Origin: Desulfobulbaceae bacterium BRH_c16a
Lineage (GTDB): Bacteria; Desulfobacterota; Desulfobulbia; Desulfobulbales; Desulfocapsaceae
Reading direction: 5' to 3'
Length of the DNA stretch: 64,000 bases
Assembly (NCBI GenBank): GCA_000961725.1
Contig: LADS01000038.1
Span: forward strand, 1-64,000
Every line of letters starts with the position of its first letter. Position 1 is the stretch's first letter. Both the position numbers and the translations under genes were made by a program. The notes beneath the pieces are model-generated. The model had not been told where the DNA came from. It searched no databases and saw only the letters and a program-made list of their open reading frames with translations. Below, one piece after another: positions 30,065 through 54,614 of the stretch.

Positions 30065-32602
30065 ATGAAGGACTGGAGCATGAAGCACGGCAAGCCGCCT
30101 ACCCCTGTTACCGAAAAATCGTTGTTGTACTGGGCATTCAGCGGCAACCTCAAGCTGCAGCTCATACTCCTTGTGGTAATTATCCTGATTGTCGTGGCCC
30201 GGGTAATTCCGCTCGAAATGCAGAAGCGAATCATCAACGACTCGATCGCCCTGCAAAATCTGCAAGGCCTTTTTTTCTACTGCGCCATTTATATCCTGGC
30301 TATCACCGTAGCCAGCGCCTTGAAACTTGCGATCAACTACCTTCAGGCATTAATCGGCGAACGTGCCATGACGGCGATGCGCAAGACCCTCTACAACCAT
30401 ATTCTTACCCTTCCACTCAACTTCTTCCGCACAACCCAGCCCGGCACGGTCGTGTCTTCACTCATGACCGAACTCAGTACCGCCGGCAATTTCGCCGGAA
30501 TGGCCTTTGCCGTACCCGTCAGCAACATCCTTACCCTGGTCGCCTTCACCGGGTACCTGATCTGGCTGAACTCGAAACTGGCCCTGGCGACCCTGATCAT
30601 CTATCCGGCTGTGGTGTTCATCATCCCCTTACTGCAGAAAAAGGCTAACAAGGCCAATAAGAAAAGAGTCGATCTGTCGAGGGAAACCTCGAGCCAGATT
30701 GCCGAGTCGATCTCAGGTATCCACGAAATTCAGGTACACGGGGCATACAGCCAGGAAGGCAGTAAATTCGACCGCCTGGCCGAAAAACTGAAAAAGATCA
30801 GAATTCGCTGGTCGCTCTTTCGTTTCGGGATCAAAACGGCCAACAACTATTTTGTCGGCCTGGGACCGTTTGTGGTCTTTGTCTACGGCGGATACCTGGT
30901 CATGCATGGCCAGCTCGAGCTGGGGGCGATGGTCGCTTTCCTCTCCGCTCAGGAGAAGCTTTTCGACCCCTGGAAGGAGCTGATAGAATTCTATCAGGCA
31001 TATCAGGACGCCTCGGTCAGTTACACCCGCACCATGAACTGCTTTGACGCCACACCAGAGTTTGCCCTCGATTTCGCCGATTCTCCCGTGCTTCGGCTGA
31101 ACGGACGCATAGAAGTGCGCGATCTTGTTTACGATACCCCCGAAGGACTTCGGCTGCTGAACGGTGTCTCCTTCAGCTTGCAGACCGGCGAACACCTCGC
31201 CATCGTCGGGTTCTCCGGAGGGGGAAAAAGCACCCTGATCCAGTGTCTCGGCAAGATGTTCCCCTACTCCTCGGGCAGTATCCAGTTTGACGCGCTTGAA
31301 CTCTCAACTCTTTCAAAACAGACGATCATCGGCAATGTCGGCTATGTTTCACAGAATCCGTTCATCTTTACCGGAACGATCGAGGAAAACCTGCTGTACG
31401 CCCAGAAGGCCCTCGGCTCTCCAGCCATCCCACCAGAAGGCGGAGAGGCGAACATCGACCGCGACAGAATGATTCTGGTGCTCCAGCAGGTCGGTCTCTT
31501 CGTCGATGTCATGCGTTTCGGCCTCGACAGCCAGATCGGCTCGGACGATCGGCTGGTTATCGAAAAAATCATCCGCATCCGTCGGCGCTTCCATGAAAAC
31601 TTTGGAGAAAAGCTTGCCGATTACGTAGAGTTCTACAATCGGGACACCTATCATGTCAATTCCAGCGTGGCCGAGAATATACTTTTCGGAACCGGCAACA
31701 GGGCCGACTTCGACTACCCTCTGCTCCCGGACAACAACAGTTTCCGGTCTTTCCTCCTCTCCGTGAATCTGCTGGAACCACTCCTCACGCTGGGCATCGA
31801 ACTCGCCGGACAGGCGGTGGATCTTCTGGCGGGTGTAGACAAGGTCGATCTCTTTTTCAGGAACAGCCCGGTCCCCGCCGACCGAATAGAAGAATGTGAG
31901 AGGATACTCAACCGATTGAGAAAACACCCGGTGACCTCACTGCCGCGGGGCCAGCAATCCTTCCTCCTGTCGCTGGCCCTGAATTTTACGCCTGCCATTC
32001 ATACCATGACCAGACTGCCCGACAGTCTCAAGAAAAACATCCTCTCGGCCCGGCAGGCTTTTCCGAAGTGGTCTGAATCGATAGCTGAGGATCTTTTTAC
32101 TTTTTACAGTGATACCAGTTATATACCAGGACAATCAATCCTCAACAATATCTTTTTCGGCAGAATCCGACCGGCTCTCCCCCATGCCCAGGAAGTGATG
32201 AATCAAGCCATCATGCACCTTCTGGTTGAGGAAGACTTTCTTGAAAAAGTCGCCGCCATCGGCATGGCCTCTCAAGTCGGCAACATGGGTGATCGGCTTT
32301 CAGGAGGCCAGCGGCAGAAGTTGGCCATTGCCAGGGTTCTCATGAAACAACCAAAAATTATTCTGATGGACGAGGCGACCTCGGCTCTCGACAACAAATC
32401 CCAGGCGAGGATTCAGCGCCTGATGACAACCCGCTGGAGTGGCAACCGGACAGTGATTGCCGCAGTTCATCGTCTCGATATCATAAATACTTTTGATAAA
32501 ATTGCGGTAATGAAAGCAGGAAAACTGGTTGAGCTCGGCACCTACCGGGAACTCATAGAACAAAAAGGCATACTCCATGAACTCATCTACGGAAGAAAAT
32601 AA
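30065..32602 (+). CDS. ABC exporter (fused permease-ATPase) with a ~250-residue insertion in the ATPase domain
   Basis: 845 residues from ATG 30065 (30080 is an alternative with AAGGAC upstream). It has an N-terminal six-helix exporter domain (about 25-310) and a nucleotide-binding domain with Walker A G-F-S-G-G-G-K-S-T at about 381 and a Q-loop V-S-Q-N-P-F-I-F at about 427. The signature L-S-G-G-Q-R-Q-K is at about 743, Walker B K-I-I-L-M-D-E-A at about 762 and H-loop A-V-H-R at about 800. Normal Q-loop to signature spacing is near 60 residues; here it is over 300. The insert contains two more copies of the segment that normally follows the Q-loop: E-E-N-L-L-Y, then A-E-N-I-L-F-G (about 536) and L-N-N-I-F-F-G (about 694). 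Substrate is unknown. It overlaps a cNMP-binding gene and heads a four-gene operon. Confidence 0.85.
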   Translation: MKDWSMKHGKPPTPVTEKSLLYWAFSGNLKLQLILLVVIILIVVARVIPLEMQKRIINDSIALQNLQGLFFYCAIYILAITVASALKLAINYLQALIGERAMTAMRKTLYNHILTLPLNFFRTTQPGTVVSSLMTELSTAGNFAGMAFAVPVSNILTLVAFTGYLIWLNSKLALATLIIYPAVVFIIPLLQKKANKANKKRVDLSRETSSQIAESISGIHEIQVHGAYSQEGSKFDRLAEKLKKIRIRWSLFRFGIKTANNYFVGLGPFVVFVYGGYLVMHGQLELGAMVAFLSAQEKLFDPWKELIEFYQAYQDASVSYTRTMNCFDATPEFALDFADSPVLRLNGRIEVRDLVYDTPEGLRLLNGVSFSLQTGEHLAIVGFSGGGKSTLIQCLGKMFPYSSGSIQFDALELSTLSKQTIIGNVGYVSQNPFIFTGTIEENLLYAQKALGSPAIPPEGGEANIDRDRMILVLQQVGLFVDVMRFGLDSQIGSDDRLVIEKIIRIRRRFHENFGEKLADYVEFYNRDTYHVNSSVAENILFGTGNRADFDYPLLPDNNSFRSFLLSVNLLEPLLTLGIELAGQAVDLLAGVDKVDLFFRNSPVPADRIEECERILNRLRKHPVTSLPRGQQSFLLSLALNFTPAIHTMTRLPDSLKKNILSARQAFPKWSESIAEDLFTFYSDTSYIPGQSILNNIFFGRIRPALPHAQEVMNQAIMHLLVEEDFLEKVAAIGMASQVGNMGDRLSGGQRQKLAIARVLMKQPKIILMDEATSALDNKSQARIQRLMTTRWSGNRTVIAAVHRLDIINTFDKIAVMKAGKLVELGTYRELIEQKGILHELIYGRK

Positions 32603-33089
32603 CCGGATTCCGGTAATGCAGCAAAATCTGGAACTTTTGAAGGAACTGTCGTTTTTTCATTACTTTCCAGACAAGGCTATCAAACTCCTGGCCTTTCTGG
32701 CGACGAGGTCGACCCTTTCGGCAGGCGACCTGCTCTTTGAAGAGGGGGAGGACCACGGCCAGGCCTATTTAATCCTCTCCGGCCAGCTGGCACTTCTCAA
32801 GAAAAGCGAAAAAGAGTCCACGCTTGTGCGCCATTACAACACGGGGGATTTTCTCGGCTCATTCTCCCTTCTCGGCAATTTGCCCTCGCTTTTCGCCCTT
32901 CAGGCAACAACCAAATCGACTGTTTTGACGATAAGTCGTGAACACTTTGCAAAAATACTTGAACAATTTCCTGAAACGGGCAAACTTGTACTCAGAGCTT
33001 TCCTCAAAGAACTGCATCAATGGGAGAGAAAGAATCTGACTGAAACCGATACCGCCAATCTCAACCACATCGGAGCAACCGTGTTATAA
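32577..33089 (+). CDS. Stand-alone cyclic-nucleotide-binding domain protein
   Basis: 170 residues forming essentially one Crp-like cNMP-binding beta-roll: L-S-A-G-D-L-L-F-E-E-G-E-D near residue 48, Y-L-I-L-S-G, and the phosphate-binding-cassette position as G-D-F-L-G-S-F-S-L-L-G-N-L-P-S. The cassette lacks the canonical R-[ST]-A-A, so nucleotide binding may be altered or absent. There is no helix-turn-helix, so it is not a transcription factor. Its first 26 bases overlap the ABC exporter gene, indicating translational coupling. It probably regulates the exporter or the partner-switching pair downstream (inference). Confidence 0.82.
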   Translation: MNSSTEENNRIPVMQQNLELLKELSFFHYFPDKAIKLLAFLATRSTLSAGDLLFEEGEDHGQAYLILSGQLALLKKSEKESTLVRHYNTGDFLGSFSLLGNLPSLFALQATTKSTVLTISREHFAKILEQFPETGKLVLRAFLKELHQWERKNLTETDTANLNHIGATVL

Positions 33090-33092
33090 AGT

Positions 33093-33512
33093 ATGGATGT
33101 CTCTTTCCAGATAATGAACGATCTGTCCGAGCTGAACACTTTGCGGGTGCAACTTCAAGCCCTGCGGAGCGTCTGGCTCCTGACACCGAAAACTGTGGCG
33201 GAAATCAATCTCGTCCTGGAAGAGATCGTATCCAATATCATCGAACATGGCGACCGGACCAAAAAACACCCGATCCACATTACCCTGAAAAAAGAAGGAC
33301 TGGAACTGACAATGGTAGTCATAGATGAAGGGCCGTCGTTCGATCCGACGATCTGTGCCCCTCCGGATACTACACTTCCCTTGAAGAAACGACAATCCGG
33401 CGGACTCGGCATCCATCTCGTTCGTGCCCTTTGTCAATGTTGCAGTTATACCAGGGCAAATGACAGCAATATTCTCACCATGAAAAGAACATTACCCGAG
33501 GAGTGCAGGTAG
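33093..33512 (+). CDS. RsbW/SpoIIAB-like anti-sigma-type serine kinase
   Basis: 139 residues, a single HATPase_c_2 domain. N-box E-E-I-V-S-N-I-I-E-H-G near residue 45, G1-box D-E-G-P-S-F-D-P near residue 78 and G2-box G-G-L-G-I-H-L-V near residue 103 are all present, so ATP binding should be intact. RsbW-type kinases phosphorylate a STAS partner and sequester a target protein. The gene follows the cNMP protein by 3 bases and precedes the STAS gene by 14 bases (its frame overlaps if the upstream GTG is used). No sigma factor gene is nearby, so the target may be the exporter or its regulator rather than RNA polymerase. Confidence 0.87.
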   Translation: MDVSFQIMNDLSELNTLRVQLQALRSVWLLTPKTVAEINLVLEEIVSNIIEHGDRTKKHPIHITLKKEGLELTMVVIDEGPSFDPTICAPPDTTLPLKKRQSGGLGIHLVRALCQCCSYTRANDSNILTMKRTLPEECR

Positions 33513-33526
33513 TCCCCCTGCAAACA

Positions 33527-33898
33527 ATGAATACTATGGAAGTGACCATCAGCAAAGGGCAGCACGCCACCATCTTTACCCTGAAGGGGCGTCTCGATTC
33601 CAACACCGCTCCACAGTTTGAGAAACAGCTGCAGGATTTTCTTGTCTCACCGAACAGTCACCTGGTGTTTGATTTCGACAACCTGGAATATATCTCCAGC
33701 GCTGGCCTGCGGGTCATTCTCAATACCGCCAAGGCCTACAGTTCCGGCCCCTACCATTTCGCCGCCTGCGCCATGCAGGAGCATGTTCAGGAAGTCTTTG
33801 AGATTTCCGGATTCGACTCGTTTATCACCATTCACCGCTCCGTCGACGAATCGCTGTCGGCTCTGGACAAGGATCAAGAGTCAAAAAGCGAGGCTTAA
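33527..33898 (+). CDS. STAS-domain anti-anti-sigma-type protein
   Basis: About 123 residues; ATG 33527 is preferred, with 33536 and an upstream GTG at 33503 as alternatives. It is a single STAS domain: G-R-L-D-S-N-T-A-P-Q-F-E near the start, and the phosphorylation loop F-D-N-L-E-Y-I-S-S-A-G-L-R-V with the conserved acceptor Ser before A-G. It would be the substrate of the RsbW-like kinase just upstream. A phosphatase that could reverse the reaction is encoded elsewhere in the window (SpoIIE type, 52812-54614), but a functional link is only inferred. Last gene of the operon; convergent with selD. Confidence 0.87.
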   Translation: MNTMEVTISKGQHATIFTLKGRLDSNTAPQFEKQLQDFLVSPNSHLVFDFDNLEYISSAGLRVILNTAKAYSSGPYHFAACAMQEHVQEVFEISGFDSFITIHRSVDESLSALDKDQESKSEA

Positions 33899-33908
33899 GC
33901 CGCTGTGA

Positions 33909-33942
33909 AACAGTCCGGATAATCGCGATTTACTGGACTGTT
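33909..33942. terminator. Possible hairpin between convergent STAS and selD genes
   Basis: 8-base arms AACAGTCC and GGACTGTT with an 18-base loop. One arm overlaps the last codons of selD, and no T-tract is present, so terminator function is uncertain. Confidence 0.3.
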
Positions 33943-34982
33943 ATCCCTACAGCACCGGCGACAATCTCACCGATTCTCACAGCCTCTGAAACTCCAGCTT
34001 TCCGCAGATCGTCGACAAGGTTCCGCGCCTGGTCTTTCGGCAGAGCCAGAAGCAGTCCGCCCGAGGTCTGCGGGTCATACAGCAATTCCAGCTGACTTGA
34101 GGTCAGCGCTCTCTCCACCGTCAGAGGGTACCGTGCAACCAGGGCGCGGTTCGCTTTGTTGCTGCCGGTGGTCTGTCCCTTCCGGTACATCTCATATGCC
34201 CCCGAATAAAATGGCAGAGCATTATAATTCACCATTCCGTGAACCCCGCCACCGGCAGCCATTTCCAGGAGATGCCCCAGCAGACCGAAACCGGTCACAT
34301 CGGTACAGGCATGAAGGTCGTACTGCAGCGCCTTGGCCATTGCCGCGCCGTTGAGGGCAGCGACAATCGGCAGGACGGATTTTTCCAGTTCCTGCAGGTT
34401 GAATTTTCCGGCCCTGGTCGCATTGAACAGCACGCCCGAACCAAGCGGTTTGGTTAGAATCAGTGCGTCGCCCGGCTTCGCCCCGGCATTGGTGATTATA
34501 CGGTTCGGATGAACCACCCCGTTTACGCAGAGGCCGTATTTCGGCTCATTATCGTCGACCGTATGGCCGCCGGCCAGACAGGCCCCGGCCTCGACCACCT
34601 TATCGTTGCCGCCGCGAAGTATTTCCCGGAGAATCCCCATGTCCAAATGCTTTGCCGGATACATCACGACATTCAGCGCAGTGAGTGGTTTCCCCCCCAT
34701 TGAATAAATATCGGATATGGAATTGGCTGCGGAAATCTGTCCGAACCAGTAGGGATCATCGACCGGAGGGGTAATAAAATCAACGGTGTTGATCATCGCC
34801 AGTTCATCGGAAAGCCTGTATACGGCGGCATCGTCGGAAGTTTCAATACCGACGAGCAAATCAGGATTACGCTTGAACTCCAGGCCACTCAGTGCGTCCG
34901 ACAGATCCGCCGGACCGATTTTTGCCGCTCAGCCACAGGTTCTGGCCAGCCCTGTAAGCGTCTTCTTCTTGAACAACATCAT
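33930..34982 (-). CDS. selD: Selenophosphate synthetase, itself a selenoprotein (Sec at codon 18)
   Basis: SelD makes selenophosphate from selenide and ATP for Sec-tRNA synthesis. A conventional reading starts late (TTG 34859) and loses the N-terminus. Reading upstream in frame gives ATG 34982, preceded by GGAG, and 350 residues, the normal SelD length. The only interruption is a TGA at 34929-34931 in the context T-C-G-U-A-A-K-I-G-P, exactly the catalytic Cys/Sec position of SelD (C-G-C/U-A-A-K). A stem-loop of bacterial SECIS type begins 13 bases after the TGA. Further SelD signs are G-I-E-T-S-D-D-A-A-V-Y and A-G-G-H-T-V-D-D. The organism therefore decodes UGA as selenocysteine, although selA, selB and tRNA-Sec are outside this window. 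Confidence 0.95.
34896..34931 (-). promoter_or_regulatory. Sec codon TGA and bacterial SECIS element of selD
   Basis: TGA at 34931-34929 is followed by 13 bases and then a 7-base-pair stem (GTCCGGC with GTCGGAC, one G-U pair) closing a GGATCT loop. A loop beginning GG at this distance is the signature recognised by SelB. Confidence 0.8.
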
Positions 34983-52811: not shown

Positions 52812-54614
52812 TCAACCGATTTTGATCAAGGCAAGGGTGATGTCGTCATTTTGCGGATTCGCACCCCGGAATACAGCTATTTCCTGAACAATGGCCTGAA
52901 GAATTTTTTCCGGCTGAAGTGTGCAGTTATCGGCGAGTATCCTTTTCATGCGTTCCCTGCCGAATTGTTCACCAGCCTGGTTCTCGACCTCCCAGCCTCC
53001 ATCGCTGCCGATGAGGATAAGCTGAACTGCCTTCCCAACCGGCTTCTCATTGTATTCATACTTACAGGTTTCATCGACCCCCAAGGCTATCCCTTTCCCT
53101 TTGAGTTCCGAGAAATCCCCATTCTCCGGACAATAGACAATTGCCGGATCGTGACCGGCACGCACCCAGCTGACAGTTTTTCGCCCTCGGTCCACCTCCA
53201 GATAAAACAGGGTGACAAAATTTCCCGATTTTAACGTGTCCTGACAGAGGAGGCTGTTGACATCACCCATTATCTCGCCAAGATTACCCGGCTGGACCAC
53301 GCGGCCGCGGAGAAGTGCCCGGACAGTAGTCATCAGCAAAGCAGCGCCGATTCCATGCCCCACCACATCTCCCACAACAACTCCGACCTTTTGCTCGTTT
53401 CCGGGAAACCTGAGAATATCGAAGTAGTCTCCACCCGTCTCGTCGCAATAAAGGATGAGGCCATGGGCAACGATTCCCTTGATGGAGACAATATCGTGCG
53501 GCAAGAGGTTCTGTTGCACCTCTCTGGCGACATTCATTGCCTCCTTCAGCAATAGCCTTTGCTGAAGTTGATGGATCATTTTGTTAAAGCTTTTCGTCAG
53601 TTCCCCGACTTCGTCGCGCGATGCAACCGGGAGGGGTGGGCCGAAATGGCCATGGGCCAAATTGTCTGCCGCAGCGGAAAGATTCCTGATTCTTTCCGTG
53701 ATATTACTCGTTGTACCTCGAATGATCAGGAGAATTGCGACAATACCGATAGTAAGAGACAGGATATAAAACAATTTGAACTTGATAACAGGTTGCAGGA
53801 TTTTTTCACCCGGGGCAATAACCACCATGGTCCAGGGCGCTTCGGTGAGACGATAAAAACCGCTGATTTCTCCCGGTGGAGAACCTGGCCCGAATACCGT
53901 GCCGAATTCATTTTTCCCCATTGTTCTCAGGGTATCCCGCTGGAGTGCATCGGTGGATCCGAAAGCCTGCGGCGTAGAATTCCTCTCCGACTCAACAAGT
54001 GACGTGCCGGCCAAAACATTGCCAAAATCATCAATCAGATACGCCTTGTTGCTTTTCCACCAGGGAGCTTTGATTATCTCATTGATGAGGCTATCAAATG
54101 AAATCACCACCTCCACCCTTCCCACAGTCTGATCGTTTTTGCTTTTCAGCTCCGACTCCAGCGAAATAATCCGATTGTTTTCTTGACTGCTGTACCTGGG
54201 CGAACTGACCGTTAACTGATCCAGTTTAGAAAAGTGCATCTCGCCCATCATTGGCTGGTTTCGAATTCCGTAGGATTCGTTTCCGGGAACATTATCCGAC
54301 CACTCGATATTAACGCCGACAATCCCATCAAGCTCTTTTATCTCCTGAAGAATAAAGGAAAAAACCTCCGGGCTTATATCGGCGCCTTCCCTGTTATGCA
54401 AAAGAAGCAACAATTCCTTGGGTTTGCGCATACGCATATCCAGGTGATGGGCCGTGCGCTGCAGCTTGGCTATTGCCGTTTCGCCCCATTGGTTGAGTAG
54501 CACTGTTCGGACAAAGATATATCCGGCAACGGACATGCTCACCAGAAGCAGAAATATTGGCACCAGAATAAAAAATAAGGTCCGTTGTTGTAAGCTCCTG
54601 GGTTGGATCATCAT
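52812..54614 (-). CDS. Membrane sensor PP2C (SpoIIE/RsbU-type) serine phosphatase
   Basis: 600 residues. Membrane helix at about 12-35, an extracytoplasmic sensor region (dCache-like, about 40-280), a second helix at about 285-305, HAMP at about 305-360, a short linker and a PPM/SpoIIE phosphatase domain. Catalytic metal residues are intact: G-G-D-Y-F-D near residue 417, G-D-V-V-G-H-G near 440 and D-D-I-T-L-A-L at the end. Such enzymes dephosphorylate STAS proteins in partner switching. The only STAS/RsbW pair in the window is 19 kb away (33093-33898), so a functional connection is possible but unproven. Confidence 0.88.
   Translation of the reverse strand: MMIQPRSLQQRTLFFILVPIFLLLVSMSVAGYIFVRTVLLNQWGETAIAKLQRTAHHLDMRMRKPKELLLLLHNREGADISPEVFSFILQEIKELDGIVGVNIEWSDNVPGNESYGIRNQPMMGEMHFSKLDQLTVSSPRYSSQENNRIISLESELKSKNDQTVGRVEVVISFDSLINEIIKAPWWKSNKAYLIDDFGNVLAGTSLVESERNSTPQAFGSTDALQRDTLRTMGKNEFGTVFGPGSPPGEISGFYRLTEAPWTMVVIAPGEKILQPVIKFKLFYILSLTIGIVAILLIIRGTTSNITERIRNLSAAADNLAHGHFGPPLPVASRDEVGELTKSFNKMIHQLQQRLLLKEAMNVAREVQQNLLPHDIVSIKGIVAHGLILYCDETGGDYFDILRFPGNEQKVGVVVGDVVGHGIGAALLMTTVRALLRGRVVQPGNLGEIMGDVNSLLCQDTLKSGNFVTLFYLEVDRGRKTVSWVRAGHDPAIVYCPENGDFSELKGKGIALGVDETCKYEYNEKPVGKAVQLILIGSDGGWEVENQAGEQFGRERMKRILADNCTLQPEKILQAIVQEIAVFRGANPQNDDITLALIKIG

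Follow-up and report, generated by a model that had tools for sequence, protein, structure and literature searches.

What does an RsbW-type kinase and STAS pair control when it is encoded downstream of an ATP-binding cassette (ABC) exporter and beside no sigma factor? The question is raised by a four-gene operon of Desulfobulbaceae bacterium BRH_c16a (GenBank assembly GCA_000961725.1), found in the 64,000 nucleotides analysed here (the window: positions 1 to 64,000 of contig LADS01000038.1, which is contig C71 of a 72-contig, 6.5-Mb assembly). We tentatively favour, at a little under an even chance, the reading that the exporter is an MsbA-like component of a glycan system and that the enlarged helical subdomain of its nucleotide-binding domain (NBD) may be gated, via STAS binding, by a switch composed of a PP2C phosphatase, the RsbW-type kinase and the STAS protein. 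By gene content and phylogeny, one large clade of these exporters has acquired such a PP2C/RsbW/STAS partner switch. The four operon proteins have Pfam matches above cut-off (ABC_membrane and ABC_tran, cNMP_binding, HATPase_c_2 and STAS, respectively):

30065-32602, + strand: type IV ABC exporter half-transporter, 845 residues, with an enlarged NBD (from open reading frame (ORF), Pfam, alignment and model)
32577-33089, + strand: cyclic nucleotide-binding (CNB)-fold protein (cNMP_binding), 170 residues, with a degenerate ligand cassette
33093-33512, + strand: RsbW-type serine kinase (HATPase_c_2), with intact N, G1 and G2 boxes
33503-33898, + strand: single-domain STAS protein, with Ser66 in YISSAGLR; conserved start probably ATG 33537

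The exporter and CNB genes overlap by 26 bases, and the RsbW and STAS genes by 10 bases when counted from the STAS GTG, in place of which family alignment probably puts the start at the ATG.

The exporter is of type IV by its domains and motifs (ABC_membrane and ABC_tran, with Walker A, Q-loop, LSGGQ, Walker B and H-loop), and G382, S384, G385, G387, K388, S389, T390, Q430, S746, G747, G748, Q749, D769, E770 and H802 are invariant in 68 sequences. It is kin to MsbA/ABCB-type exporters, but 316 residues separate Q430 of the Q-loop from S746 of the signature, compared with 57 in two ordinary exporters that the genome also encodes, whose compact helical subdomain is not present in the window exporter. 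With a spacing of 307-338 residues in 114 family sequences (161 in locus L229), the insert is a conserved, previously undescribed region of these exporters. Three segments, beginning at N442 (NLLYA), N538 (NILFG) and N695 (NIFFG), mark three copies of the module that follows the Q-loop:

31334-31612, + strand: copy 1, residues 424-516, with the true Q-loop, TIEENLLYA, helices and a linker helix
31613-32095, + strand: copy 2, residues 517-677, with a strand, SSVAENILFG, helices and a linker helix
32096-32278, + strand: copy 3, residues 678-738, with a strand, QSILNNIFFG and helices that run into the LSGGQ signature

Profile comparisons between copies (hhalign) gave scores of 33.2 (copies 1 and 2), 35.2 (1 and 3) and 53.5 (2 and 3), exceeding all scores from 60 column shuffles each (maxima 17.8, 23.1 and 15.3, respectively), so the repeat goes beyond chance. 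The linker helix common to copies 1 and 2 scored 19.9, compared with a shuffle maximum of 12.4. Copy 1 scored 19.8 against a segment at 600 and 16.4 against one at 560, both inside copy 2; these segments and a third at 580, all designated 'unrelated', overlap copy 2 and are invalid as controls for it. Modelled alone with AlphaFold, exporter residues 508-690 formed a fold with a mean predicted local distance difference test score (pLDDT) of 90.5. Profiles and models thus support growth of the helical subdomain by tandem internal duplication of the post-Q-loop module; the NBD is among the most conserved of protein modules, yet repetition has here enlarged its helical subdomain more than twofold. 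The idea that the tails of copies 2 and 1 carry a degenerate signature motif was dropped (profile scores of 9.5 and 8.7 against the true signature, within the range of 40 shuffles). The initial annotation, made from the letters of the window, had described the four overlapping or abutting genes, more than 300 residues between Q-loop and signature, N-x-L/F-F-G segments near residues 440, 536 and 694, intact kinase boxes and a STAS acceptor serine, all of which hold in the reading frames, Pfam matches and alignments, and its suggestion that the insert grew by internal duplication has gained support.

To place the operon among its relatives, insert exporters were collected from 193 genomes of the order (single-sequence exporter query; 42 genomes positive), from a phylum sample of 395 genomes (profile query; 28 positive among the best six or fewer candidates scored per genome) and from a genome collection (95 stretches, 80 kept), where the nearest named records were from Desulfobacterales, Desulforhopalus and Desulfopila genomes. 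Flanks were examined for 40 of the 63 order places, the 80 kept collection stretches and 20 of the 36 phylum places, for a total of 140 loci plus the window; 124 of these 141 exporters are distinct, and 86 loci have at least 3 kb on both sides. The partner sets of these 86 were exporter, CNB, RsbW and STAS (46, and one more whose CNB match is not directly downstream), CNB only (22), CNB and STAS (6), RsbW and STAS (5), no partner (5) and CNB and RsbW (1, on a masked contig), counts that are not unbiased frequencies because the collection search patterns were built from 11 sequences, 10 of them with RsbW or STAS nearby. RsbW and STAS both lay within 3 kb of the exporter in 52 of the 86, variously downstream (44), divergent upstream (4), co-directional upstream (3) or mixed (1); because the pair stays close to the exporter in rearranged positions, simple synteny is disfavoured. 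Both proteins keep their conserved motifs: the window kinase has the box residues E44, N48, D78, G80, G103 and G106, which recur in 75, 75, 74, 72, 75 and 75, respectively, of 75 aligned family members, and Ser66, which we take to be the equivalent of SpoIIAA Ser58, is kept in 82 of 82 aligned STAS proteins.

A phosphatase commonly accompanies the pair. PP2C proteins of one cluster (c2) were found no more than six listed ORFs away in 29 of the 52 RsbW+STAS loci and in 2 of the 34 others (Fisher P = 1e-6; association and co-occurrence P values here ignore relatedness), abut the exporter in some relatives, and, in the two members scanned by Pfam, combine HAMP with a SpoIIE domain. The window holds a candidate of this kind:

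52812-54614, − strand: HAMP + SpoIIE-type PP2C phosphatase, a putative reset phosphatase

This is only one candidate, because among the three of seven PP2C frames of the genome that match c2 at E <1e-20, those on C22 (L210; 648 bits, L121) and C49 (L209; 824 bits, L196) match at least as well as that of the window (614 bits, L051). These gene neighbourhoods support a predicted partner switch that is completed by PP2C without an adjoining sigma factor. Bacillus RsbU/RsbW/RsbV and SpoIIE/SpoIIAB/SpoIIAA likewise consist of a PP2C phosphatase, a GHKL serine kinase and a STAS antagonist; the window has genes for the same three kinds of protein, its PP2C being a candidate ~19 kb away, but no sigma factor beside the pair, and its kinase scores 28.2 against the SpoIIAB model (cut-off 135) and 25.5 against the RsbW model (cut-off 145). 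No cognate sigma factor was found on C71 or C49 (sigma70 region-2 occurs at ten places elsewhere in the genome), and among the ORFs of the 141 loci, searched with four of the genome's ten sigma factors, one sigma-like ORF was found (L195).

Several variants of the module were seen in passing. At L233:1780-4311 an exporter split into three frames lies next to RsbW, STAS and PP2C (decay or sequencing error); L237:5110-6714 and L239:4207-6654 each encode one protein that matches the RsbW and the PP2C profile alike, in loci that hold STAS genes but where no insert exporter was found; an FHA-domain gene (cluster c19) directly follows STAS in one subgroup (L125, L142, L148, L153, L155 and L157); and contig C33 of the genome carries a second pair of SpoIIE-domain and stand-alone HATPase_c_2 proteins (346075-347039). 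A 372-residue 'RsbW' in L165 was rejected as an artefact, its frame crossing a masked stretch.

The tree suggests an order of events. A phylogeny of 117 rows was built with FastTree from columns outside the insert and rooted on two ordinary exporters with long branches. In it, RsbW or STAS is restricted to a single 88-row clade (support 99), and the 27 family rows outside it carry the insert with CNB only or no partner (no RsbW or STAS seen; 20 of these rows have 3 kb on both sides and 7 are on shorter contigs). Because rows outside the clade have the insert without the pair, the insert seems to predate RsbW and STAS in the rooted tree. We infer that insert and CNB came first, that the switch came later and that some losses followed; seven rows within the clade that have room for the pair have neither gene (L123, L124, L131, L141, L159, L183 and L198). 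Long branches (the outgroups, L206 and L229) leave the rooting and the placement of L229 unsure, and the label 'Myxococcota' on rows titled 'Deltaproteobacteria bacterium' seems to derive from the title. One row titled Aminicenantes (L169, a 3.4-kb contig) is placed next to L147 and could be a binning error.

The CNB protein is the most constant neighbour. Its gene lies directly downstream of the exporter in 103 of the 119 loci where 700 bases or more follow the exporter, overlapping it in 101 of the 103, and across the order sample CNB matches above 140 bits occur in 38 genomes, all among the 42 with the exporter (weak matches of 75-78 bits occur in four genomes without a listed exporter). 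Because this adjacency is near-constant and overlapping, the protein would be the older and most faithful partner, and the original accessory subunit, of the exporter. Its first description as a cyclic nucleoside monophosphate (cNMP) sensor is doubtful. Of the cassette Glu and Arg, which presumably contact the cyclic nucleotide, 18 of 105 aligned proteins have Glu, 67 have Arg and 1 has both, and the window protein has Ser95 and Ser104 at these positions; Pfam gave PF00027 alone, with no DNA-binding helix-turn-helix domain found in its 170 residues. The cassette argues against an ordinary cNMP sensor, and 'cNMP-binding' is used here as a domain name.

Beyond the operon, the exporter travels with a wider set of genes. 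Near exporters in the 86 loci were c1 (30 loci; ~293 residues, an invariant CPxC across 22 sequences and no Pfam match in one member scanned), c3 (27; ~200 residues, a start resembling a signal peptide, no Pfam match in two members scanned) and c4 (24; PqqD-like by match). In the order sample, c3 occurs in 41 of the 193 genomes, 40 of them in common with the exporter (exporter only in G164 and G188, c3 only in G168); c1 occurs in 39 (36 in common) and n2, a 652-residue membrane protein without Pfam or NCBIfam match, in 38 (36 in common). The matched pieces of n2 in these 38 genomes are 75-93% identical to that of the window genome (654 residues in its own genome; for example, L243:6888-8852). 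Of the 28 exporter genomes in the phylum sample (three of which are also in the order sample), 25 carry c3, often on a different contig, and three do not (G217, G263 and G295); no other genome of that sample had c3. In L255, n3, n2, exporter, CNB, c3, c1 and c4 form one contiguous run. Contig C29 of the window genome carries c3, c1 and n2 together with a DUF6785/6784 protein, a 1605-residue FtsX/M28 protein, a small FtsX protein, an ABC ATPase, a DUF2334 protein and a histidine phosphatase, and with three glycosyltransferase genes, two of them GT28-like and one GT4 (the nearest models, EpsE and WcaL, both scored below cut-off). The content of these neighbourhoods suggests that the exporter belongs to a conserved glycan (exopolysaccharide-like) assembly/export system of Desulfobacterota, apparently new to description. 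Look-alike ORFs of the C29 set were also seen in L259 and L260 (by appearance, with no domain scan), and a 1605-residue protein at L258:917-5734, adjoining glycosyltransferase genes, joins M28 peptidase-like and MacB/FtsX parts.

How might the switch act on such an exporter? Mla is a transporter class other than the type IV exporters. Within it, the STAS protein MlaB docks on the helical subdomain of MlaF, an ABC ATPase, with a phospho-site position at the interface, T52E weakens binding, and kinase/phosphatase control of the STAS-gated transporter is raised by the authors as an open possibility (PMC7367683). The likeness lies in STAS combined with an ABC ATPase, the binding site on MlaF corresponding to the part enlarged in the window exporter; the differences are that no kinase or phosphatase is named for MlaB in the available portion of that article and that the STAS pairing here is a predicted one. 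A second parallel is Vibrio fischeri SypA, a STAS protein of a polysaccharide system that acts below transcription on a target given as unknown in the available text (PMC10120452); a review, in its available part, words SypE/SypA control as transcription of biofilm genes (PMC8256260). Both systems would place a polysaccharide pathway under kinase/phosphatase and STAS control, but SypE unites kinase and phosphatase in one protein, and no enlarged ABC exporter is mentioned in the accessible parts of these sources. By analogy with MlaB on MlaF, a membrane HAMP-PP2C would sense an envelope signal and dephosphorylate STAS, which would then bind the enlarged helical subdomain and alter how ATP hydrolysis is coupled to transport; phosphorylation by RsbW would release STAS from the exporter, and the output of the switch would be transporter activity rather than a sigma factor. 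A fuller version, in which the exporter is the direct output of a partner switch, phosphorylation gates glycan export without a change in transcription, the ligand-blind CNB protein is a second built-in subunit and STAS docks on the tandem-repeat-enlarged subdomain, we regard as possible at distinctly less than an even chance. If true, it would illustrate how a kinase and a phosphatase can gate a transporter through STAS, and would offer a candidate target type for STAS proteins of the SypA kind, whose action lies below transcription. No description of an exporter as partner-switch output, or of this NBD, was found in a search of the titles and abstract beginnings of the papers listed, with preprints and most subscription papers outside its reach.

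Several observations weigh against a gated exporter. The insert occurs without RsbW or STAS in 27 of the 86 loci and so did not evolve for the pair; homologues of this kind are what the initial annotation had named as refuting its reading. Of its proposal of a partner switch outside a sigma-factor circuit, the tie between switch genes and exporter stands, with PP2C added and no neighbouring sigma factor, and the tie between insert and switch does not. L229 retains RsbW, STAS and PP2C without copy 2, which is thus not essential for the switch in that locus. In addition, no c2 PP2C lies within six listed ORFs in 23 of the 52 RsbW+STAS loci, the nearest PP2C of the window is ~19 kb from the operon, 16 of the 119 loci lack a directly downstream CNB gene, and the glycan genes of the window genome are on a different contig from the operon.

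There are three other explanations. The insert may instead be a structural or assembly dock for CNB, c1, the 652-residue protein or the DUF6785 protein and be unrelated to STAS and RsbW, which we consider a real possibility, if not quite a probable one: the 27 tree rows outside the RsbW/STAS clade carry the insert, the exporter is shared with c1 and with the 652-residue protein in 36 of 193 genomes each, and the L255 run is contiguous, but a dock alone leaves the retention of RsbW, STAS and PP2C beside the exporter unexplained. It is also compatible with gating if STAS later came to use an existing dock. Alternatively, the switch could control expression via a regulator located at another place in the genome, such as a sigma factor, and adjoin the exporter only through a common glycan pathway. 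RsbW/STAS pairs classically act on expression, the genome has its ten sigma70 region-2 places, and order genomes contain RsbW-STAS modules, most with PP2C, without an insert exporter at the locus (L231, L232 and L235-L240). However, the loci searched yielded the single sigma-like ORF and none beside the window operon, whose four genes overlap or nearly abut, and relatives vary the order of the pair yet keep its proximity; we hold expression control to be unlikely, if worth serious consideration. Very improbable, in our view, is secretion of a modified peptide rather than a glycan, with the PqqD-like c4 as the peptide-recognition element. Besides c4, that idea draws on a weak resemblance of the CNB protein to TIGR03896 (cyc_nuc_ocin), a CNB-fold family named for bacteriocin-type transport, but the score of 37.3 is far below the cut-off of 161.05 (170 residues against a 317-position model), Pfam found no peptidase domain on the exporter, no maturase was present among ten neighbour proteins scanned, and the c3 locus of the genome has three glycosyltransferase genes.

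Two further features of the assembly touch the operon. An identical copy of the exporter is present on contig C49, and with the same region on C49 and C71 the assembly (96.6% complete, 6.0% contaminated) is probably redundant. Beside the operon, selD (AIRS domains; window 33930-34982, − strand) has an in-frame TGA at 34931-34929, in ARTCG-U-AAKIGP and upstream of the called start; it seems to encode a selenoprotein that the ORF list shortens.

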